Positions 14,765 to 61,159 of a stretch of DNA of 64,000 nucleotides are shown piece after piece (positions within the stretch are counted from its first letter, which is position 1; each line of letters opens with the position of its first letter). A program made the translations under genes and the position numbers. This stretch comes from Halomicrobium urmianum. Lineage in GTDB: Archaea; Halobacteriota; Halobacteria; Halobacteriales; Haloarculaceae. Location of the stretch: contig NZ_CP084090.1 of assembly GCF_020217425.1 (NCBI RefSeq), forward strand, positions 2,604,001 through 2,668,000. The letters are read 5' to 3'. The notes under the pieces were generated by a model that searched no databases, was not told the origin of the DNA, and worked only from the letters and a program-made list of their open reading frames with translations.

Positions 14765-16177
14765 TTATCGGGGGTTGTCGACGCCGGTGAGCCGGATCGC
14801 GTATCCGTGGTCGTGATCCGGTTCGGCCGGGAGCGACACGGTCAGCATGTCGCCGTCGAGGCTGTTCTCGCAGGCCTGCGCACCCTCGTCGGTCAGTAGC
14901 TCGGCGTCGGGTGCCGCGGCGAGTTCGACGTGGGCTGGCACGGACAGTTCGAGCTCGTCGCCGGGCCAGTCGAGGGCGGTGGCGTAGAGGTCGCCGTCGC
15001 AGTGCGTGTAGCGGACTTCGACAGCACTGCTCTCATCTTCGGCGACGGCCCACGGTCGCGAGCCGAAGATCGCCTCGCCGTTGACGTCGATCCAGTCGCC
15101 GAGCGCCCGGAGTCGGTCTTTCTGTATCTCCGGGATGGTGCCGTCGGCCTTCGGCCCGACGTTGATGAGGAGGTTGCCGTTCTTCGAGACAATGTCGACG
15201 AACGAGTGGACCAGTTCCTCGGCCGAGAGGTGGTCGTCCTCGTCCTCAGCGGCGTTGTAGCCGAAGGAGTGACCGATCCCGCGATTCCCTTCCCAGGGCT
15301 CTGCGCGAATATCGTCGAAGGTGGCGTACTCCGGCGTGACGAAGTCGCCGTGGTACTCCTCGGTCCCCCGGTTCTCCGGATCGATGGTCGGGCCGATGGC
15401 GTCGGTGGAGGCGCGGTCGTTGACGGCGACGTCCTTGCCGCGCTCGTCGGCGCGGTTGTAGTAGTCTGCGATCAACTCCTTGGCGTTCAAGTGATCGCCC
15501 TCGGCCTTGGGCACGTCGAACCAGAGCAGGTCGGGGTCGTACTTGCGGATCAGTTCCCTGTGCTTGGCGTTCATGAAGTCGACGTACTCCGGTCCCGGGC
15601 CGCCCGCGTCTTCGATTGGTCCGCCCTTCTCGAAGTCGGGGTGGCCGAACTGGCCCTCGAAGCCGGGCTGGTAGTAGTTGTAGTTGGCGTGGTAGGAGGC
15701 GGCGAACTTGAGACCGTACTCGCGCACCGCGTCGGCGAGGTCGCCGACGAGGTCGCGTTCGGGTCCCATCTCGGCGGCGTTGTACTTCGCGTAGTGGCTG
15801 TCCCACAGCGGGAACCCGTCGTGATGCTCGCCGGTGAGGACGACGTAGCCCGCGCCCACGTCCTCGAAGAAGGACGCCCACTCGTCGGGGTCAAACTCCT
15901 CGGCGTCCCACTCGTCGACGAAGTCGGCGTACTCGACGTCCTCGCCGTAGGTCTCCTCGTGGTACTCCCTGGTGGGCGACTCCTCTTCGTACATGTAGTA
16001 GGGGTACCACTCGGCGTACGGCGAGGCCGTTTCCCCACCGATGTCGGCGTCGGTCGGTGCCCACGCCGGCACGGAGTAGACGCCCCAGTGGATGAAGATA
16101 CCTAACTTCGCATCGCGGAACCACTCAGGTAGTGCATGCGAGTCTAGCGACTCCCACGTCGGATCGTATCCCGGCAT
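14765..16177 (-). CDS. Alpha-L-fucosidase, GH29 (copy 2)
   Basis: This 470-residue enzyme has the GH29 barrel beginning AKLGIFIHWGVYSVPAWAP, the HHDGFPLWDSHY substrate loop, the catalytic nucleophile Asp in DLLWFDVPKAEGD (about residue 220), and LLINVGPKADGTIPE near the barrel end. A C-terminal beta-sandwich of about 110 residues follows. No signal peptide is visible. The start at 16177 is favoured by a TATA-like box 22-34 bases upstream; the longer frame from 16243 would start before that promoter. The middle of the gene is nearly identical to copy 3 at 18117-19541. Confidence 0.92.
   Translation of the reverse strand: MPGYDPTWESLDSHALPEWFRDAKLGIFIHWGVYSVPAWAPTDADIGGETASPYAEWYPYYMYEEESPTREYHEETYGEDVEYADFVDEWDAEEFDPDEWASFFEDVGAGYVVLTGEHHDGFPLWDSHYAKYNAAEMGPERDLVGDLADAVREYGLKFAASYHANYNYYQPGFEGQFGHPDFEKGGPIEDAGGPGPEYVDFMNAKHRELIRKYDPDLLWFDVPKAEGDHLNAKELIADYYNRADERGKDVAVNDRASTDAIGPTIDPENRGTEEYHGDFVTPEYATFDDIRAEPWEGNRGIGHSFGYNAAEDEDDHLSAEELVHSFVDIVSKNGNLLINVGPKADGTIPEIQKDRLRALGDWIDVNGEAIFGSRPWAVAEDESSAVEVRYTHCDGDLYATALDWPGDELELSVPAHVELAAAPDAELLTDEGAQACENSLDGDMLTVSLPAEPDHDHGYAIRLTGVDNPR
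15421..16100 (-). repeat. Near-identical direct repeat, copy A (GH29 copy 2)
   Basis: This segment matches 18785-19464 at a constant offset of 3364 bases with only scattered differences. The 5' and 3' ends of the two genes diverge much more. The two copies are in the same orientation and flank the 16276-18116 gene pair, so recombination between them could delete or duplicate that pair. Confidence 0.85.
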
Positions 16178-18116: not shown

Positions 18117-19541
18117 CTACTGCTCGCGCGGATTGTCGACGTCGGCCAGCCGAAGCGTGTAGGCGTGGTCGTGGTCCGGCTCCGCAGACAGCGAGACGGT
18201 CAAGGTCCCGCCGTCGAGGGTGCTCTCGCAGACTTGCGCTCCCTCGGCAGTCAGCAGTTCGACGTCGGGAGCCGCGTCGAGGTCGACGTGAGTCGGGACC
18301 GACAGTTCGAGCTCGCCGCCGGGCCAGTCGAGGGCGGTGGCGTAGAGATCACCGTCGCGGTGGGTGTATCGCACGTCGACCGCGCTGGCCTCGTCCTCGG
18401 CGACGGCCCACGGTCGCGAGCCGAAGATCGCCTCGCCGTTCGTGTCGAGCCACTCGCCCAGCCCGGCGAGCGGCGTCCGCTGGAGGTCCGGGATGGTGCC
18501 GTCGGCCTTCGGCCCGACGTTGATGAGGAGGTTGCCGTTCTTCGAGACGATGTCGACGAACGAGTGGACCAGTTCCTCGGCCGAGAGGTGGTCGTCCTCG
18601 TCCTCGACGGCGTTGTAGCCGAAGGAGTGACCGATCCCGCGGCAACTCTCCCACTTGCGGTCCTGAATCTCGTCGAAGGAGGTGTACTCCGGCGTGACGA
18701 AGTCGCCGTGGTACTCCTCGTTGTCCCGGCGGTTCCCCTCGATGTCGATGGTCGGGCCGATGGCGTCGGTGGAGGCGCGGTCGTTGACGGCGACGTCCTT
18801 GCCGCGCTCGTCGGCGCGGTTGTAGTAGTCCGCGATCAGTTCCTGGGCGTGGACGTGATCGCCCTCGGCCTTGGGCACGTCGAACCAGAGCAGGTCGGGG
18901 TCGTACTTGCGGATCAGTTCCCTGTGCTTGGCGTTCATGAAGTCGACGTACTCCGATCCCGGGCCGCCCTGCTCCTCGGCCGGTCCGCCCTTCTCGAAGT
19001 CGGGGTGGCCGAACTGGCCCTCGAAGCCGGGCTGGTAGTAGTTGTAGTTGGCGTGGTAGGAGGCGGCGAACTTGAGACCGTACTCGCGCACCGCGTCGGC
19101 GAGGTCGCCGACGAGGTCGCGTTCGGGTCCCATCTCGGCGGCGTTGTACTTCGCGTAGTGGCTGTCCCACAGCGGGAACCCGTCGTGGTGCTCGCCGGTG
19201 AGGACGACGTAGCCCGCACCCACGTCCTCGAAGAAGGACGCCCACTCGTCGGGGTCGAACTCCTCGGCGTCCCACTCGTCGACGAAGTCGGCGTACTCGA
19301 CGTCCTCGCCGTAGGTCTCCTCGTGGTACTCCCTGGTGGGCGACTCCTCTTCGTACATGTAGTAGGGGTACCACTCGGCGTACGGCGAGGCCGTTTCCCC
19401 ACCGATGTCGGCGTCGGTCGGTGCCCACGCCGGCACGGAGTAGACGCCCCAGTGGATGAAGATGCCCAGTTTCGCGTCGTGGTACCACTCCGGAACCGGA
19501 TGCTGGTCTAACGACTCCCACGATGGCTCGTACTCTGCCAT
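18117..19541 (-). CDS. Alpha-L-fucosidase, GH29 (copy 3)
   Basis: This 474-residue paralogue of copy 2 has the same landmarks: LGIFIHWGVYSVPAWAP, GEHHDGFPLWDS, the nucleophile Asp in LLWFDVPKAEGDH at about residue 220, and LLINVGPKADGTIP. From about residue 30 to 260 the two proteins are almost the same residue by residue, while the first 25 residues and the C-terminal sandwich differ. This suggests a recent duplication kept alike by gene conversion in the catalytic part. No signal peptide is visible. A TATA-like GTTATTAG (19566-19573) lies about 27 bases upstream of the ATG. Confidence 0.92.
   Translation of the reverse strand: MAEYEPSWESLDQHPVPEWYHDAKLGIFIHWGVYSVPAWAPTDADIGGETASPYAEWYPYYMYEEESPTREYHEETYGEDVEYADFVDEWDAEEFDPDEWASFFEDVGAGYVVLTGEHHDGFPLWDSHYAKYNAAEMGPERDLVGDLADAVREYGLKFAASYHANYNYYQPGFEGQFGHPDFEKGGPAEEQGGPGSEYVDFMNAKHRELIRKYDPDLLWFDVPKAEGDHVHAQELIADYYNRADERGKDVAVNDRASTDAIGPTIDIEGNRRDNEEYHGDFVTPEYTSFDEIQDRKWESCRGIGHSFGYNAVEDEDDHLSAEELVHSFVDIVSKNGNLLINVGPKADGTIPDLQRTPLAGLGEWLDTNGEAIFGSRPWAVAEDEASAVDVRYTHRDGDLYATALDWPGGELELSVPTHVDLDAAPDVELLTAEGAQVCESTLDGGTLTVSLSAEPDHDHAYTLRLADVDNPREQ
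18785..19464 (-). repeat. Near-identical direct repeat, copy B (GH29 copy 3)
   Basis: This is the partner of 15421-16100 at an offset of 3364 bases. Long runs are identical, for example through the part encoding the SPYAEWYPYYMYEEE region, with only single-base differences elsewhere. Confidence 0.85.
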
Positions 19542-35838: not shown

Positions 35839-38800
35839 TCACCCGTTCGAGACGGCGTCGAAGTCCTGCTTGAACTGGTCGCTCGTCCGGTCGAAGGTCT
35901 CGACGTCGTAGCCCTTCCGCTGGATGGCTTCGCGGGCCGAGTCGCCCTCGTTGGCCGCGCGCTCGTAGGTCTTCGTCGCCGTCGCATCGGGCACGTACAT
36001 CGACCCCGTGACGTCGTCGCTCGCTTCGACCGTGAGGTCCGTCCCCTCGGCGAACTCGTCGGTCCGGCCCGTCACGTCGCCCAGCCGCTGGCTGAGCTGG
36101 GACGTCTTGGAGACGGCCGTCCCCGGGTTCCCGCCGCTGTAGACCTCGTAGATCCGTTCGACGGTCACGGTGTCGCCCTGCTTGGCGACGACCATCGCGT
36201 CGACGTCGCCCGACTGCACGGCGCTGGACTCGAATCCCTGCAGGACGTACGTACCGTCTTCCAGGTCTTCTAACTGGTTGAAGCTCTTCGCGACGCGCGC
36301 GTTCTCTGCCTTCGCGAGCCGCTTGCTGGCGGTCACCTCCGCCAGGTCGCCGGCGTTCTCGACGTCGTCCAGCTTTGCGCCGTCGACACGCCGGGAGACG
36401 TCGGCGGACTCGTCGGCGTATCTGAGCGACTCCGCCGCGTCCTGGAGGTCCTCGGGGTCGCGCCCGGATTTGACGTACTGGCGGACCGTCTCACGGGAGA
36501 GGCCGTATTCGTCGAGCAGGGTCCGCGCCGAGTCCGCGATCCGCCCGACGTTGCGCTCGTTTTTCATGAGCCGCTCGATCGCCTCCGTGCTGAGTCCGAG
36601 CGTCTCGTCGAGGTACGTACCCGGCGTCCCGTCGTAGAGCCGGTTGACAGCCCGGACGCGGTTGCCCCGGAACTGGTCGATCCGACCCAGGATCCGCTGC
36701 AACTGGAGGCGCTCGCCGAGGCTCCCGGCGCGTCGCAGCTTCGATATCTTGGGCATCGCGGAGCCGACGTCGCCGGCCAGGGGGATGATGCCGAACGCGG
36801 CCAGGGCCGCCTCGCCGCCCTGGCCGGTGTCGAGCGCGACGAGGAAGTCGCGGACGTCGCCGGCCGCGACGAATCCGGAGGCGATCCAGCCGGCGGTGTA
36901 CTCGGACTTGTCGTCGACGCCCTCGGGCCAGCACCCGAGGCCGCAGAGCGCGCCCAGGGCGAACGACGAGGGGTCCTGCACGGGCTCGTCGTTCTCGATC
37001 CGGACGTGGTAGCTGTCGACGCCCTCCTCGACGATGATCGGGTAGCGGCCGAGCGTGTCGCCGCTGGCGCGGACGACCGCCGTCGTCGAGCCGGTCGCCA
37101 GCTCCTCGTCGAAGGCGAACTCGCCGTCGTCGTCGGTCCGGGCCGTGTGGCCGTCGATCTCGACGGTGACGTCCCGGAGGACCGTCCCGTCGAACAGCGT
37201 CACTTTCCCTGAGACGGAGGCGGCGTCACCGACCGTGATCGAGACCTCCTCGGTCGCTGCGGCGTCGTATTCGACGACGCGCGAGACGCGGGCCTCGGTC
37301 CCCGGATAGACCGTCACGGAGTAGGTTCCGCTGGAGAGGCCCGCAAACCGCACGGTACCGTCCTGCCCGGCGACCTTCGACCGCCCGCCGTCGGCGTTGA
37401 TGCCGACGACGGTCCCCGGGACTGGTTCTCCGCTGGCGTCGGTGGCCTCGACGACCAGCGCGTCGCCGGTCTCGACGGTCAGCGCGTCCTCGATGACCGA
37501 GCGGGCGTAGAGGTACTTCTCGGTGTCGGCCCCCCGGACAGTGACCCGCAGGTCGTAGCTGCCGGCGTTCAGGTACTCGGGGACGGGCAGGTCACGCTCG
37601 ACGGTGGTCGTCGCCTCCGCGAGTACGTCCGTGGTCTGCTCGTCCAGGGTCTGCCACCCGTCCTCGGTCCGGACCTCGTAGACGAGCCGCACGTACCGCT
37701 TCTCGTCGTCGCGGGAGGTGACCCGCGTCGTCGCCGGGAGGTCGTCGAGGGGTTCGTGGGCCCCGTCCGCGACGTCGAAGTGACGGACGCCGATCTGCTC
37801 CTCGGGCTCCCTGACCTCGAAGAGTCCGCTCCGCCGGGCGGTCGCGACGCTCTCCCCGACGTCCGAGTCGACGACCTCGACTGCGACGTCGTACGCGCCC
37901 GGCTCGACCGGGTTCGGATCGCGTGCCTCGGTCGTCCAGGAGACCTCGGCCGTGCCGCTCTCGCCCGGTGCCAGCGTGAGTCGATCGCCGCGCGTGACCG
38001 TCGTTCCGGGGCCGTCCCCGTGCTCGATCCGGTAGCGTACCTCGTAGGTCTCCTCGGTCGCGCCGCGGTTCTCGACGGTCGCCTCGAGGAGCACCTGGTC
38101 ACCGGGCTCGTACTCGGGATTCGAACTCGCTACCCCGGTCAGCTCGGCCCCGCCGTCGCCGACGCGGAAGATCGGCTCGGCGCGTTCAGCGTCGAGCGCC
38201 CGGTCACTGGTCCGGTTCGCGAAGACGATCGCCTCGTGAGCGTAGGCGCCCACTGGAGCGTCCACGGGCAAGTCGGTCTCGAACCGAAGGACGTCAGTTT
38301 CACCCGGGCCGACGGTGACGGTCCGCTCCGTCTCGTCCAGAGGACCGCCGTCCGGTCCGTCGAACGCACTCCGGACGAGGAACGTGTGTTCGATCGGGCC
38401 GTCGTTGTCGACCCTGACGTCCACGACTGCGGTATCGCCCGCGGCGTAGGTCTCCGACCGGCTCTCGACGGCGGCGATCCGGGCGTCCACGTCACCGGGA
38501 CCCAGCACCTCGAAAGCTCCCCGTCGGCGTTCGTCGTCCAACCGCGTCCGGAGGTCGTCGCGATCGCTCTCTTTCCAGACCGCCGCGTACCCGTCGTACT
38601 CCCCGCCCGGCGCGTCGTCCTCGACCCGCCACGACAGGGAGACGGTCCGCCGCTCGCCCGGTGCCAGCGTCACTGTCCGACCCGTCGAGGCGTCGCCGTC
38701 GTACTCCTCACCGTCCGGTCCGATCGCCGAGTAGCCCACGAAGAAGGTGTGGTGGGACGCCCCGGTGTTCTCGACGACGGCCCTGGCGTCGACCGATTCG

Positions 38801-40461
38801 CCCGCGGCGAACTCGCCGCGTTCGACATCGAAGTCGACGATCCGGGCGCCCGCGTCGTCGACGACCTCGAACACGTCGCTGCCGCTGACGTCGTCCAGCC
38901 GCGTCCGGAGGTCGTCGCGGTCGCTCTCCTGCCACGCGCTCAGCCTGACGCCGTACGATCCCGTCGGCGCGCCGTCCTCGACCGTCAACTCGAGGTCCAC
39001 AACGCGCTGCTCGCCCGGCGCCAGCGTCACCGTCTTCCCGGTCGTCTCGTCGTTGTCGTACAGCTCGCCGTCCGGCCCGACCACGGAGTAGCCCACGAAG
39101 TACGTGTGGTCGACGTTGCCCGTGTTCTCGACCGTCGCCGTCGCGTCGACCGTCTCGCCGGGCGTGAACTCCCCGCCCCCCACGCTCGCGTCGACGATCT
39201 CGGCGTCGACCTCCGGCGGCTCCGCGACGCCGAAGGCGTCGGACCGGCGCGCGGCGTCCAGTCGCGTCCGCAAGTTGTCACGGTCGCTCTCCTTCCAGAC
39301 CGCCGCGTACCCGTCATACTCGCCCGCAGGCGCGTCGCTCTCGACGTCCCACTCAAGCGACACCGTGTGCCGCTCGCCCGGCGCCAGCGTCACGGTCCGA
39401 CCCGTCGAGGCGTCGTTGTCGTACAGCTCGCCGTCCGGCCCGACCACGGAGTAGCCCACGAAGTACGTGTGGTCGACGTTGCCCGTGTTCTCGACCGTCG
39501 CCGTCGCGTCGACCGTCTCGCCGGCTCGATGCTCTCCGGAATCGACGTCGAATCCGACGAGCCGCGCGTCGACCTCCGTCGGCTCCGCGACGCCGAAGGC
39601 GTCGGACCGTCGCGCACTGTCGAGGCGCGTCCGGAGGTCGTCGCGGTCGCTCTCCTCCCACACCGCGACGAACCCGTCGTACTCGCCCGCCGGCGCGTCG
39701 CTCTCGACAGTCCACGAGAGCGACACCGTGCGCCGCTCGCCCGGCGCCAGCGTCACCGTCTTCCCGGTCGTCTCGTCGTTGTCGTACAGCTCGCCGTCCG
39801 GCCCGACCACGGAGTAGCCCACGAAGTACGTGTGGTCGACGTTGCCCGTGTTCTCGACCGTCGCCGTCGCGTCGACCGTCTCGCCGTCGTCGAACTCCCC
39901 GGCGTCGACGTCGACTCCGCCGATCTGCGCGTCGATCGTCTCCTCTGCCACGCGGAATCCGTCGGATCGGCGCGCGTCGTCGAGGCGGGTCCGCAGGTCG
40001 TCGCGGTCGCTCTCTTTCCACAGCGCCGCGTACCCGTCGTAGTAGCCCGCAGGCGCGTCGCTCTCGACCGCCCACTCCAGCGAAACGGTCGTCCGCTCGC
40101 CGGGCGCCAGCGTCACTGTCCGCCCGGTCGTCCCGTCGTTCTCGCGGTAGGTCCCGTCTGGGTCCACGGCCGCGTAGCCGACGAAGAACGTGTGAGTCGT
40201 CGTGCCCGTGTTCTCGACCGTCGCCGTCGCCGCGACCGATTCTCCCGCAGTGAACTCGCCCGATTGCTGTCGGAAGTCGACGATGCGCCCGTCGACCGAC
40301 GCCGCACTGACGCTCGGTGCTGTCCCACCGGTCTGTTCGGCGTCGGCGACCGTCGCTCCACCCGCTACCTGACCCGCCGAAACCGCGCCCGCGACCGGGG
40401 CGGTGGCCAGTAACACCGCCATCGCGACCGCGAGGCCGGCCCGAGTAACCTCTCCGTTCAT
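35839..40461 (-). CDS. Giant CARDB-repeat exported protein with pretoxin-like and nuclease-like C-terminus
   Basis: This 1540-residue protein begins with a Sec signal (RAGLAVAMAVLLATAPVAGA). Residues about 58-840 hold seven CARDB-type beta-sandwich repeats, the first five very alike (ATVENTGNVDHTYFVGYS, TVTLAPGERRTVSL, WKESDRDDLRTRLD). Two carboxypeptidase-regulatory-like domains follow (about 1010-1155). A hydrophobic segment comes next (GWIASGFVAAGDVRDF, LAAFGIIPLAGDVGSAM) resembling the pretoxin linkers of polymorphic toxins. The last 135 residues (SGDVDAMVV, then RIYEVYSGG and SKTSQLSQRL) recall the D...ExK order of restriction-endonuclease folds, but the lysine position is Tyr. No cell-wall anchor (PGF-CTERM) is present. 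The toxin reading is inference. Confidence 0.8.
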   Translation of the reverse strand: MNGEVTRAGLAVAMAVLLATAPVAGAVSAGQVAGGATVADAEQTGGTAPSVSAASVDGRIVDFRQQSGEFTAGESVAATATVENTGTTTHTFFVGYAAVDPDGTYRENDGTTGRTVTLAPGERTTVSLEWAVESDAPAGYYDGYAALWKESDRDDLRTRLDDARRSDGFRVAEETIDAQIGGVDVDAGEFDDGETVDATATVENTGNVDHTYFVGYSVVGPDGELYDNDETTGKTVTLAPGERRTVSLSWTVESDAPAGEYDGFVAVWEESDRDDLRTRLDSARRSDAFGVAEPTEVDARLVGFDVDSGEHRAGETVDATATVENTGNVDHTYFVGYSVVGPDGELYDNDASTGRTVTLAPGERHTVSLEWDVESDAPAGEYDGYAAVWKESDRDNLRTRLDAARRSDAFGVAEPPEVDAEIVDASVGGGEFTPGETVDATATVENTGNVDHTYFVGYSVVGPDGELYDNDETTGKTVTLAPGEQRVVDLELTVEDGAPTGSYGVRLSAWQESDRDDLRTRLDDVSGSDVFEVVDDAGARIVDFDVERGEFAAGESVDARAVVENTGASHHTFFVGYSAIGPDGEEYDGDASTGRTVTLAPGERRTVSLSWRVEDDAPGGEYDGYAAVWKESDRDDLRTRLDDERRRGAFEVLGPGDVDARIAAVESRSETYAAGDTAVVDVRVDNDGPIEHTFLVRSAFDGPDGGPLDETERTVTVGPGETDVLRFETDLPVDAPVGAYAHEAIVFANRTSDRALDAERAEPIFRVGDGGAELTGVASSNPEYEPGDQVLLEATVENRGATEETYEVRYRIEHGDGPGTTVTRGDRLTLAPGESGTAEVSWTTEARDPNPVEPGAYDVAVEVVDSDVGESVATARRSGLFEVREPEEQIGVRHFDVADGAHEPLDDLPATTRVTSRDDEKRYVRLVYEVRTEDGWQTLDEQTTDVLAEATTTVERDLPVPEYLNAGSYDLRVTVRGADTEKYLYARSVIEDALTVETGDALVVEATDASGEPVPGTVVGINADGGRSKVAGQDGTVRFAGLSSGTYSVTVYPGTEARVSRVVEYDAAATEEVSITVGDAASVSGKVTLFDGTVLRDVTVEIDGHTARTDDDGEFAFDEELATGSTTAVVRASGDTLGRYPIIVEEGVDSYHVRIENDEPVQDPSSFALGALCGLGCWPEGVDDKSEYTAGWIASGFVAAGDVRDFLVALDTGQGGEAALAAFGIIPLAGDVGSAMPKISKLRRAGSLGERLQLQRILGRIDQFRGNRVRAVNRLYDGTPGTYLDETLGLSTEAIERLMKNERNVGRIADSARTLLDEYGLSRETVRQYVKSGRDPEDLQDAAESLRYADESADVSRRVDGAKLDDVENAGDLAEVTASKRLAKAENARVAKSFNQLEDLEDGTYVLQGFESSAVQSGDVDAMVVAKQGDTVTVERIYEVYSGGNPGTAVSKTSQLSQRLGDVTGRTDEFAEGTDLTVEASDDVTGSMYVPDATATKTYERAANEGDSAREAIQRKGYDVETFDRTSDQFKQDFDAVSNG
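38460..40310 (-). repeat. Tandem 363-bp CARDB-coding repeats
   Basis: Consecutive units are spaced by 363 bases (121 residues). In three neighbouring units (starting at about 39051, 39414 and 39777) a run of about 110 bases is identical, covering the part that encodes FVGYSVVGPDGELYDND. Such near-identity at DNA level points to recent unequal exchange and makes copy-number variation likely. Confidence 0.85.
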
Positions 40462-51923: not shown

Positions 51924-52374
51924 CGATCTCCCTCCACGAGACCCGTCGGATCGAGACGCGGTCGGGCGCCGGCCGCCAGTCCGGTTCGGCGTCGCGGGCG
52001 GTCCGCGTCGCGTCCCCGAAAGCGTCCCGGGATTCGAAGACCGCAGCCGGCCCCTCGCCCGCAAGCACCGCTGCGAGCCGGTCGTCTGAGCGGACGGGAG
52101 TGACTGGGCCGTAGGCGAACGCGGCCGCTGCCCGTCCGTCGTCGTCCCGCAGCTGTATCTGCTGGGGACCGACACGTCACTCGCTGGCGTCGGGGAGGGC
52201 GCGGACGCCGCTGCTCCCCGGCGGGCCGGCCGCCACTCGATCGATTGCGTCGGCCGCCGCGGCGGCGTCCGGCGGCGTCCCCGACGGCAGCGCAGCGACG
52301 GTTCCCAGGGCGGTGACGCTCGCTGCCGCGACGCCGAGCCACACGTACCACGCGTCGACTGGCACGTCGAACAT
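51904..52374 (-). pseudogene. Conserved Tad-locus membrane protein gene split by in-frame TGA (DUF7283-like)
   Basis: The first 65 codons (MFDVPVDAWYVWLGVAAASV, one hydrophobic helix) end in TGA at 52177-52179. The same frame then continues for 90 codons with full coding character (RVGPQQIQLRDDDGRAAAAF, YGPVTPVRSDDRLAAVL, VSIRRVSWREIDVTLVG) to TAG at 51904-51906, just overlapping the next gene as is usual in this operon. No start codon allows independent translation of the second part. As I recall the family, the intact protein runs through this point. A CGA-to-TGA or TGG-to-TGA change, a sequencing error or stop readthrough would explain it. Confidence 0.7.
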
Positions 52375-57191: not shown

Positions 57192-58268
57192 ATGAAAGTC
57201 GTCCTGATCGGGGTCGGCCAGGCCGGGGGGAAGATTACCCAGGCCCTCGCCGAGTTCGATTACGACATGGGATTCGAGGCGGTGCAGGGCGCGCTGGCGG
57301 TCAACACCGCCCAGGCGGACCTCCGGGAGCTCGACATCGACACGCAACTCATCGGTCAGGACCGCGTGAAGGGCCACGGGGTCGGCGGCGACAACGAGCT
57401 CGCCGCCCAGATCATGGAGGAGAACGCCACCGAGGTGATGAACGAACTGGACGGGCGCATCTCGACCGGCGCCGAGGCCATCGTCGTCACGGCCGGGCTC
57501 GGCGGCGGCACCGGATCGGGCGGCGCACCGATGCTCGCCCGCGAGCTCAAGCGGATCTACGACGTTCCCGTCTACGTGCTGGGCGTCCTCCCCGGACGCG
57601 ACGAGGGCGGCATCTACCAGGCCAACGCGGGCCGCTCGCTGAAGACCTGCGTCCGCGAGGCCGATTCCCTGCTGCTGGTCGACAACGACGCCTGGAAGGC
57701 CAGCGAGGACAGCCTGTCGGCCGGCTTCGATCGCATCAACGACGCCATCGCCCAGCGGTTCGGCCTCCTCTTCGCCTCCGGCGAGGCGGTCGACGGCGTC
57801 GGCGAGAGCGTCGTCGACTCCTCGGAGATTATCAACACCCTCCGCTCCGGCGGCATCGCCTCCATCGGCTACGCCTCTGCCCCGGCCGCCGAAGACCCCG
57901 GCGAGAACGTCAACGTGATCACCAGCGTCACCCGTAACGCCCTCCTCACCAGCATGAGCCTCCCGGACGCCATCGACGCCGACTCTGGCCTGCTCGTCGT
58001 CGCCGGTCGGCCCGACCGTATCTCCCGCAAAGGTGTCGAGCGCGCCCGCAAGTGGCTCGAGGAGGAGACCGGCAGCCTCGAGGTCCGCGGCGGTGACTTC
58101 CCCATCGACAGCGGCAAGGTCGCCTCGCTGGTCCTGCTGGGCGGCGTCGAGCGCTCGAACCGCGTCGACGAGTTCATGGAGCGGGCCACCGCTGCCAGGG
58201 AGGGGATGGCCGAGACGACCGACCCCCTCGAGGGCTTCGAGTCCGACGATCTCGACGACCTGATGTGA
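57192..58268 (+). CDS. cetZ: CetZ-family tubulin-like cytoskeletal GTPase
   Basis: This 358-residue protein begins MKVVLIGVGQAGGKITQAL and has the tubulin/FtsZ signature GLGGGTGSGGAPML for GTP binding. KTCVREADSLLLVDNDAW and LRSGGIASIGYASAPA lie in the core. The C-terminus ends with an acidic tail (FESDDLDDLM). CetZ proteins polymerise with GTP and control cell shape, rod formation and motility in haloarchaea. Which CetZ paralogue this is cannot be told. It is divergent from the Tad-like pilus operon with only 80 bases between, suggesting shared control. Confidence 0.93.
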   Translation: MKVVLIGVGQAGGKITQALAEFDYDMGFEAVQGALAVNTAQADLRELDIDTQLIGQDRVKGHGVGGDNELAAQIMEENATEVMNELDGRISTGAEAIVVTAGLGGGTGSGGAPMLARELKRIYDVPVYVLGVLPGRDEGGIYQANAGRSLKTCVREADSLLLVDNDAWKASEDSLSAGFDRINDAIAQRFGLLFASGEAVDGVGESVVDSSEIINTLRSGGIASIGYASAPAAEDPGENVNVITSVTRNALLTSMSLPDAIDADSGLLVVAGRPDRISRKGVERARKWLEEETGSLEVRGGDFPIDSGKVASLVLLGGVERSNRVDEFMERATAAREGMAETTDPLEGFESDDLDDLM

Positions 58269-58371: not shown

Positions 58372-59518
58372 TCACCTGTCGCCCCAGCCGTCGCTGTCGT
58401 TCCACTCGTCGTCGCCCCAGCCTCCGTCGTCCCAGTCCTCCCCGTCGCTGTCGTCGCCAGCGCCTGTCCCCCCGTCGTCGCTCCCGTCGGTCCAGCCGTC
58501 GCCATCGCCCCACTCGTCGTCGCCCGCGTCGCTTTCGCTCCGGTCGTCGCTGTTCTCGTCGTCGCCCCCAGTCGTCGCTGCTCGATTCCTCGTCGCCGTC
58601 CCAGCCGTCGCCCCAGTCCGGACCGTCTGATTCGTCGGTCGCGCCGTCGGCGGCTTCGGTCGCAGTCGCGGTGTCCGCCTCGGCCGTCGACTGATCGGCG
58701 CCCTCCGTCGCGACTGACTCGTCGCCGGACTCGGTTCCCCCGTCCGTTCCGTTCGCGTCCGTCTTCCCGTCGTCCGTCGGGCTGGCGGGAGTGACGGTAG
58801 CGGTCTCCTGATCGTCCGCCGGGGTGGGCGTCGCGTTGGCGTCGTTCGGTTCGGTGGCTCCGCCGTCCGTCCCCTCGCCGTCGGTTCCGTAGCCGTCGCT
58901 CCACTCGTCGCCCCACTCGCCGGTCTGGTCGTCCCCGTTGCCCCCGTTTCGGCTGTCCTCGTCCCAGCCGTCGTCGCCCCAGCCGTCCTCGTCGAACCCG
59001 TCGCCGCCTTCGTCGGCCGTCTCGTCGGTCGCGTCCCCGTCGGGTTCGGTCGCTCTCTGGTCGGACTCGGTCGCGTTCTCGGCAGAGTCGCCCCCGGATT
59101 CGGTCGCAGTCGGGACCCAGGCGTCGCCTCCGCTGCCGTCGTCGCTCCCGCCGTCCGCATCGCCGCCGCCCCACTCGTCGGCGTCACCCCACTCCTCGCC
59201 GTCGCCGTCTGCGTCGCCTCCCCAGTCCCAGTCACTGCCGTCGTCCTCACTCTCGATCTCCTCCGAGTCGTTTCAGCTCCAGTCCTCGTCGGTCTCCTTG
59301 GAGTCGTTCCAACTCCAGTCGCTCTCAGAGTCGTCAGACTCGTTCCAGTCGGACTCCCAGTCGCTGTCGGACTCGTTCCACTCGGTGTCGTCACCGGCGT
59401 CCCAGTCCTGGGCGCTCGCGACGCCCGCGCCCATGGAGAGGGACACGACCACGGCGAGGATCGCTGTCAGGCGAACTGTGCGACGCGTTGCGGATGCCAC
59501 AGTTGATTTCGCGGACAT
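58372..59518 (-). pseudogene. Secreted Asp/Trp/Gly/Ser-rich protein, broken by in-frame TGA and one-base insertion
   Basis: It begins MSAKSTVASATRRTVRLTAI with a Sec signal cleaved after VASA, then low-complexity acidic repeats (WDAGDDTEWNESDSDWESDW). The unit SDWSWNDSKE is followed by EDWS-stop-NDSEE, so the TGA at 59273-59275 stands exactly where the previous unit has TGG (Trp). The same frame then runs on (EWGDADEWGGGDADGGSDDG) to DDWG near 58570. There an extra base in a run of five C (58565-58569, plus strand) shifts the frame, and the shifted frame continues in the same style to DSDGWGDR and stop. The span is 382 codons plus one base. A TATA-like box lies at 59546. Confidence 0.7.
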
Positions 59519-59545: not shown

Positions 59546-59555
59546 GATATAAACC
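59546..59555 (-). promoter_or_regulatory. TATA-like element of the Asp/Trp-rich protein gene
   Basis: The minus strand reads GGTTTATATC, centred about 32 bases before the ATG at 59518. It is the clearest TATA-like match in this region. The remaining sequence to 59815 holds no gene that I can see. Confidence 0.5.
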
Positions 59556-59815: not shown

Positions 59816-61159
59816 TCAGACGAGGCTGCTGCCGTCGAACTCGGCGCGCTCGTAGTCGACGTCCATCAGGTCGAGAATCGTCGGCGCGATGTCGTAGAGG
59901 TCGACGTCGTCGATGCGAGCGCCGGGTTCGTCGACGAGCAGCGTGGCGTTGTCGAAGCTGTGCATGCCGTTGCGCGGCCCCATCCCGAAGACGTCCTCGG
60001 AATCCTTGAAGCCGGCCTTGAGGTCGAACCCGTGGTTCGGGACGACGACCAGGTCGGGCGCGATGTCGTCGTGGTCGCCGCGGAAGGCGTCCTCCTTGGT
60101 GACGACGCGGTCGGCCACCTTGTTGCCGTTCGGACCCTCCAGGGCCTCCAGTTCGGCCTTGAGCTCGTCACGGACCTGCTCGTACTCGTCCTGGGGGACG
60201 CTGCCGCGGGGCTCGCGGCCCTCGAGGTTGATGTAGAAGCGACCGGGGATCAGCGAGTAGGCGCGGGTGTCCTCAGCGATGTCGCCGAGGTTCTCGTGGT
60301 CGTCGTCCTCGTAGGAGAGCCACCCCTCCTGCTCGAGCCACTCGTTGAAGTGGACCTCGTATTCGAGCGTGGTGAAGCCGTGGTCGGAGGCGACCATCAT
60401 CGTGACGTCGTCCGGCAGCATTTCACGGAGTCGGCCGAGGTAGTCGTCGACCTTCTCGTAGAACTCCAGGAACGCCTCCCTGTTTTCCCCGTCTTGCTCG
60501 TAGTCCCTGAACAGGAAGTGGTTCACCCGGTCGGTGGTCATGAAGACGCCGAAGAAGAGGTCCCAGTCGTCCTCCTGGACGTACTTCTGGAACGCCTCGA
60601 ACCGCTTGTCGATCGTCTCGTGGGCGTCCTCGATGAACTCCGACTTGTCGTCCTGGTGGCCGAGTTTGGCGTTGACGTCGATGCGGTAGTCGATGCCGTC
60701 AAGGTAGTCGGCGAGCTCGTCGGGATAGGCGGCGTCGTCGACGCCAGGCGAGAGGAACCCGGAGACCATCCGCTGGACGTTGCGCTGCGGCGGGAAGGTG
60801 ACGGGGACGTTCAGCACGGTGGCGTCGCGCCCGTCGTCGACGACGCGGTCCCAGACGCGGGTCGCCTGGACGTCGCGACCCATCGGGACGTAGGTGTCGT
60901 AGGAGCCGACCTCCCGGTCCTGGAAGCCGTAGACGCCCGTCTCGCCGGGGTTGACGCCCGTCGTGAGCGACGGCCAGCAGGCGGACGACTCCGGGGGCAC
61001 GATGCTGTCGATCGGTCCGGCGCTGCCCTCGTCAGCCAGCGCGGTCAGGTTCGGGAACCGATCCGGATTGTCCTCGATCAGACTGTACGGTACCCCGTCG
61101 ATGCCGAAGAAGGCGACGCGGGGACCCTCGTCGCCGCGAAGACGGTCGAACAGACCCAT
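59816..61159 (-). CDS. Alkaline-phosphatase-superfamily hydrolase (nucleotide pyrophosphatase/phosphodiesterase type)
   Basis: This 447-residue enzyme has the metal-binding opening VAFFGIDGVPYSLIEDN, the nucleophile region SSACWPSLTTGVNPGETGVY with the catalytic Ser/Thr, and the later metal ligands TMMVASDHGFTTLE and HSFDNATLLVDEPG. It would hydrolyse phosphodiesters or phosphate monoesters, or act as a phosphoglycerate-mutase-like enzyme, with two divalent metals. No signal peptide is present, so it is cytoplasmic. It is a common stand-alone gene in haloarchaea with unknown substrate. Confidence 0.88.
   Translation of the reverse strand: MGLFDRLRGDEGPRVAFFGIDGVPYSLIEDNPDRFPNLTALADEGSAGPIDSIVPPESSACWPSLTTGVNPGETGVYGFQDREVGSYDTYVPMGRDVQATRVWDRVVDDGRDATVLNVPVTFPPQRNVQRMVSGFLSPGVDDAAYPDELADYLDGIDYRIDVNAKLGHQDDKSEFIEDAHETIDKRFEAFQKYVQEDDWDLFFGVFMTTDRVNHFLFRDYEQDGENREAFLEFYEKVDDYLGRLREMLPDDVTMMVASDHGFTTLEYEVHFNEWLEQEGWLSYEDDDHENLGDIAEDTRAYSLIPGRFYINLEGREPRGSVPQDEYEQVRDELKAELEALEGPNGNKVADRVVTKEDAFRGDHDDIAPDLVVVPNHGFDLKAGFKDSEDVFGMGPRNGMHSFDNATLLVDEPGARIDDVDLYDIAPTILDLMDVDYERAEFDGSSLV

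Follow-up and report, generated by a model that had tools for sequence, protein, structure and literature searches.

A Halomicrobium urmianum gene for a predicted secreted Asp/Trp-rich protein, broken by an in-frame TGA and a one-base frame change

A single gene for an acidic, Asp/Gly/Trp-rich (D/W-rich) low-complexity protein in Halomicrobium urmianum carries two lesions, an in-frame TGA at a repeated tryptophan position and a one-base frame change in a run of five G residues. In our judgment, the gene probably decayed recently, was dispensable and particular to this species, and encoded a disordered, strongly acidic exported protein rich in Trp. The mechanism is ordinary and the protein mildly odd. 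Coordinates without a prefix are those of the window, i.e., the whole stretch of 64,000 nucleotides that was analyzed; those with the prefix C1 are those of contig C1, of which 2.05 Mb were examined, including the window (~61% of the contig, 48% of the genome).

Layout of the gene and its coding signal

The gene, its elements, and the neighboring features discussed below are as follows.

58372..59518, minus strand: broken gene (81 codons, TGA, 234 codons, and 65 codons) whose predicted product is acidic, secreted, of low complexity, and rich in Asp, Gly, and Trp
59411..59518, minus strand: signal peptide of 36 residues ending in ASA (by eye)
59275-59273, minus strand: in-frame TGA, codon 82, with Trp at the matching position of the preceding unit (translation)
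58569-58565, minus strand: G5 run (C5 on the plus strand) with a one-base frame change; comparable units in other parts of the gene carry G4
59548..59553, minus strand: TTTATA, a TATA-box-like hexamer ~35 bases 5' of the ATG (by eye)
57192..58268, plus strand: CetZ (tubulin-like) gene, convergent neighbor, intact (Pfam CetZ_C, 8.1e-67)
59816..61159, minus strand: type I phosphodiesterase/nucleotide pyrophosphatase family gene, upstream neighbor, intact (Pfam PF01663, 4.8e-53)
52177..52179, minus strand: internal TGA in a DUF7283 gene (Pfam and relatives)

Reading the minus strand, the ATG at 59518 opens the signal peptide, and units rich in Asp, Trp, Glu, Gly, Ser, and Asn follow. The TTTATA hexamer lies ahead of this ATG at what we take to be the position expected for a haloarchaeal promoter. 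Within the repeats, EDWS[TGA]NDSEE comes after the unit SDWSWNDSKE and has its TGA at 59275-59273, beyond which the frame is free of stops past 58570 and into the G5 run. On the 3' side of that run, the D/W/G composition resumes in the neighboring frame and continues through ...DGWGDR to a stop TGA at 58374-58372, while translation of the unshifted frame would lead into an Arg-rich tail. An earlier note on this DNA had claimed that a TGA replaces a repeated Trp codon and that a one-base shift at the C5 run leaves the composition unchanged; both observations were borne out, and the coordinates given for the two lesions are correct. A third lesion was not seen across the 381 codons of the gene, which contains 18 G runs of four to six. 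As it now stands, the gene would yield only the signal peptide and ~45 acidic residues.

For the successive segments, each read in its D/W-rich frame, third-position GC is 0.84, 0.87, and 0.91. Likewise, a codon-usage model trained on the Halomicrobium urmianum genome breaks the gene by a stop at 59273 and by a frame change of one base at 58567, with log-odds of 96.6 for the codons from the stop at 59273 to the next possible start. Because the GC bias and the codon-usage model span both breaks, there is good support for one gene carrying both lesions, and the coding signal is not chance. In-frame stops by point mutation and small indels have been named among the usual causes of disrupted haloarchaeal genes (PMC4500146), and Haloquadratum has been credited with over 300 pseudogenes per strain (PMC3119063). 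The lesion types seen here are those of the disrupted genes curated in HaloLex (PMC4500146) and, as in such pseudogenes, they break the frame within a region of coding signature; the difference is that the D/W-rich gene comes without an intact ortholog to align.

The predicted protein and its distribution

The mature product would comprise ~344 residues, including Asp 89, Gly 63, Glu 40, Ser 33, Ala 29, Thr 29, and Trp 24 (26% Asp, 18% Gly, 7% Trp). The earlier note had described a Sec-exported, D/W-rich secreted protein. The signal peptide was recognized by eye, in keeping with that description, but Sec does not hold as the sole route, in that a twin arginine (TRRTVRL) lies within the signal peptide and makes export by Tat equally possible. 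AlphaFold2, run without relatives, returned a mean pLDDT of 45 and no fold, the sole helix being residues 7-28 in the signal peptide, and the part before the TGA had no match in Pfam. N-X-S/T sequons hold 8 of the 12 Asn residues, compared with 2.1 in shuffled sequences (0 of 2000 reached 8), a count that the internal repeats inflate. If exported intact, the protein would presumably have acted through its bulk properties (charge, hydration, and possible N-glycans) in a mucin-like manner, as proposed for halomucin. Halomucin of Haloquadratum walsbyi is secreted, is thought to hold water around the cells, and has a strain-dependent length (PMC4378361, PMC3119063). The likeness would be that of secreted haloarchaeal proteins, with secretion of the D/W-rich protein predicted from a signal peptide recognized by eye; halomucin has 7,836-9,159 residues and recognized domains, whereas the D/W-rich protein would have ~344 mature residues, made up of repeats, with no domain found. 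For a secreted chain, a composition of about one quarter Asp and 7% Trp is odd, and this may give the orphan protein some minor interest.

At E 0.001, the N-terminal 81 residues matched 4 of 146 genomes of the family, one match being the window itself and the other three (genomes G090, G121, and G154) being, on inspection, proteins unrelated to the query that resemble it in composition or carry one short acidic segment. In the G154 protein (L042:241-1761), a signal peptide and a short N-terminal part that is acidic and contains Trp are accompanied by what, by eye, look like winged-helix domains. With a longer piece as the query, the only match among 392 genomes of the order at E 1e-6 was to its own, with none in the 391 others, and scans of genome contigs, viral contigs, and plasmids returned no relative; homology searches handle low-complexity sequence poorly, and a fast-drifting relative could escape them. 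The search for relatives with an intact frame, which had been proposed as a check, therefore found none, with the same proviso. The CetZ and phosphodiesterase genes are both present in 19 of 28 related loci, corresponding to 18 genomes (L016 and L070 are the same place), and in those 18 genomes no D/W-rich gene lies between them. In this interval, a frame that is acidic and low in Trp is present at two of the loci (L019 and L027), and two from the same genus (L064 and L065) have other genes there. Since no relatives were matched and the gene is absent between CetZ and the phosphodiesterase elsewhere, it appears, as far as can be seen, to be confined to the species.

Internal stops elsewhere in the chromosome and the meaning of UGA

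Several other genes of the chromosome are interrupted by stop codons that can be assigned to a residue or a repeat position.

C1:~2554864-2556942 (L059:4864-6942), minus strand: secreted GH10 xylanase-like gene, with a TGA at C1:2555809 facing a conserved Trp after RGHYLL (PDB alignments)
C1:~748534-749505 (L160:8534-9505), minus strand: GH16 laminarinase-like gene, with a TGA at C1:748891 facing Trp (PDB alignments)
C1:30096: SRPBCC-like gene (named by eye), with a TAG facing Trp in 3/3 aligned relatives
C1:2110328: MATE transporter gene, with a TAG facing Gln in 19/19 relatives
C1 ~3316.9-3318.3 kb (L195), minus strand: gene for a secreted protein of low complexity and rich in Gln, interrupted by three TAGs and, close to its end, by an apparent frameshift

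The SRPBCC-like gene, which had no match in Pfam, has a second stop, a TGA, upstream in the same frame. Two of the three TAGs of the Gln-rich protein fall, by eye, at repeat positions that are elsewhere Gln; this protein (C1:3317-3318 kb) resembles the D/W-rich one in being secreted, low in complexity, and broken by several lesions, and it differs in having TAG stops and in being rich in Gln rather than in Asp and Trp, so that homology between the two is not claimed. Further stop candidates are found, for example, at C1:1020330, 1027339, 1036385, and 2468367. At C1 ~1020-1040 kb, stop and frame-change candidates crowd around ABC-transporter-like genes, in what may be a decaying region. An internal TGA in two MATE genes of a relative (G012) was dropped when re-alignment showed no stop within the aligned part.

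The internal TGA at 52177, which the earlier note had counted as a second case, is real. Specifically, it interrupts a DUF7283 gene whose part before the TGA matches positions 1-58 of 142 of the Pfam profile, and homology resumes in frame past 52177-52179 in all 6 relatives that aligned. The residue opposite the TGA is Ile in 4 of the 6 and Phe in 2, and not Trp. This gene clusters with DUF7285, DUF7310, and DUF7311 genes.

A genome-wide use of UGA for Trp, as raised by the TGAs in the GH10 and GH16 genes, was rejected on the grounds that TAG occurs at Trp and at Gln and that TGA ends most genes. Among 1750 predicted gene ends with a stop codon, 1080 are TGA, 468 TAG, and 202 TAA; UGA is thus not rare as a terminator, contrary to what reassignment would entail. 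Internal stops with an assignable residue are likewise not confined to UGA at Trp, since they include TAG at Trp, TAG at Gln, and TGA facing Ile or Phe. The sole tRNA-Trp found in a scan of 1.658 Mb and 32 tRNA loci has a CCA anticodon and an intron. As for selenocysteine, tRNA-Sec gave matches below the family cut-off only, which coincided with ordinary tRNA-Arg and tRNA-Thr, and the genome had no match to SepSecS, compared with one in the M. jannaschii (Methanocaldococcus) control. The present case therefore resembles archaeal selenocysteine recoding in having a UGA inside a gene and differs from it in that tRNA-Sec and its synthesis, which such recoding needs, were not found. A candidate stop-reading tRNA with a tta anticodon (C1:2734921-2735037) arose only if introns were allowed and was set aside, as moving the intron by one base changes the anticodon to TTG; we take it to be most likely an intron-bearing tRNA-Gln, judging by eye. 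In any case, a tta anticodon would not read UGA.

The placement of the stop on a Trp codon can be understood from codon usage. Under the usage of the genome, stop-making transitions are distributed as TGG->TGA 22%, TGG->TAG 22%, CAG->TAG 45%, CGA->TGA 9%, and CAA->TAA 2%. In the D/W-rich gene, the codons at risk are 24 TGG plus the present TGA, 5 CAG, 1 CGA, and 0 CAA, such that ~50 of 56 stop-making transitions (~89%) would strike Trp. A stop located exactly at a repeated Trp is thus the chance expectation, because the gene is full of Trp codons. Taken across the chromosome, the assignable stops fit a mixture of transitions that tracks the codons at risk rather than one meaning of UGA: TGA stands at Trp three times and TAG once, while TAG stands at Gln once and, judged by repeats, twice more; the DUF7283 stop is not among them. 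A striking coincidence of TGA with a repeated Trp can therefore come from composition alone, and the Gln-rich gene of the same genome has TAG stops; this is a useful warning against wrongly inferring codon recoding in GC-rich archaea.

Decay and competing readings

Recent decay is supported by two lesions in an otherwise intact frame, by a gene without relatives, and by a chromosome with similarly broken genes. Taking the DNA as assembled, one transition would have turned a Trp codon into the in-frame TGA, and one base would have been gained in the G run, probably by slippage; whichever lesion came first, the other would then have been nearly neutral, and loss of the protein would have been tolerated. 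Other considerations run counter to decay. With no more than two lesions and its codon bias kept, the gene might instead still be in use via some rescue. It is also an orphan, with no intact ortholog by which to date the decay or gauge constraint, so that evidence for the break comes from coding bias and internal repeats. Of the three readings offered in the earlier note, namely recent decay, natural UGA readthrough, and slippery-run switching, the first is the one that the evidence supports; the second finds no support, given TAG at Trp and Gln, TGA as the main stop, CCA as the anticodon of the only tRNA-Trp found in the parts scanned, and the lack of SepSecS matches, and neither does the third, given the upstream TGA, which stays.

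Natural readthrough, in which the tRNA-Trp with its CCA anticodon would misread UGA in the D/W-rich gene and in other secreted proteins to give full-length products, is very unlikely. In its favor, the internal TGAs of the D/W-rich, GH10, and GH16 genes, for which a residue can be assigned, all stand at Trp, the D/W-rich and GH10 proteins have an evident signal sequence, and low-level misreading of UGA as Trp has been described for E. coli and Salmonella (PMC7918605). Against this stand the TAGs at Trp and at Gln in other broken genes, the DUF7283 TGA opposite Ile or Phe, the role of TGA as the main stop, and the frameshift, which would still lead the D/W-rich product into the Arg-rich tail. 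In a broader form, near-cognate readthrough (of UGA by tRNA-Trp and perhaps of UAG by tRNA-Gln) would be tolerated, with the Trp-rich, Gln-rich, GH10, and GH16 proteins made at a low level. This too is highly improbable, since one TAG occupies a Trp position and the D/W-rich gene also has a frameshift, an argument that is weaker for genes with a single stop. In the literature text retrieved, no report of UGA read as Trp in haloarchaea was apparent, and a review of archaeal recoding, in the text retrieved, covers selenocysteine, pyrrolysine, and frameshifting, with the word tryptophan absent (PMC8211752). Bacterial in-frame stops have been argued to be often readable through, with the requirement that the stop be present in two or more genomes (PMC7918605); for an orphan such as the D/W-rich gene, that requirement is unattainable.

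Assembly or base-calling error, by which the living cell would have an intact frame and both the TGA and the extra G would be mistakes of a kind that long reads can give at modified bases and homopolymers, is also unlikely, albeit worthy of weighing. One of the two lesions is itself in a G5 run. Of 24 candidates in a wider set of frame breaks, 4 (that of the D/W-rich gene included) lie <=40 bases from a run of five or more. Low-complexity DNA could draw assembly errors as well as mutations, and frameshift candidates number 27 in 2.05 Mb, compared with 2 in 400 kb of control regions from relatives. In these same control regions, no clear internal stop was seen by eye and one is possible (L081:6381), a sample too small to call the genome unusual. 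Conversely, 20 of the 24 candidates are not near runs of five or more, and the lesions gather in the same genes far above random, including the SRPBCC-like gene, which is not low-complexity. An automatic event list for the 2.05 Mb of C1 holds 45 events (18 stops and 27 frame changes), with 9 adjacent pairs within 1 kb, compared with a random mean of 1.0 and a maximum of 6 in 2000 placements. From this noisy list, 7 stops and 11 frame changes were removed by eye (antisense, gene-boundary, duplicate, or weak), and the 27 chosen lesions form 5 adjacent pairs within 1.2 kb, compared with a mean of 0.41 (0 of 5000 random placements reached 5). Base errors that arise independently would have no tendency to collect in particular genes, and the clustering of lesions therefore favors true decay over random assembly error. 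Phase variation of a surface protein, with slippage in the G runs as the switch, would be in keeping with the 18 such runs and the signal peptide, but no change in run length can remove the TGA upstream of the G5 run, and runs of four to six are short for phase switching, all of which makes this reading extremely unlikely. It is just as hard to credit that the truncated form (the signal peptide and ~45 Asp/Trp-rich residues) is the working product; the frame is intact up to the TGA and a TATA-like element lies 5' of the ATG, but the coding bias runs 300 codons past the TGA, implying that a longer product existed until recently, and nothing points to the short form being made.

Elsewhere in the window, repeat words like those of the D/W-rich gene at 15877 and 19241 were found to belong to two alpha-L-fucosidase genes. 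These two genes (14765-16099 and 18117-19490) are closely similar and lie ~2 kb apart. Finally, a 1488-residue protein with Ig/CARDB/NEW3-type repeats is encoded at 35839-40305, where a 363-base tandem repeat is present in 4.9 copies (38525-40297).
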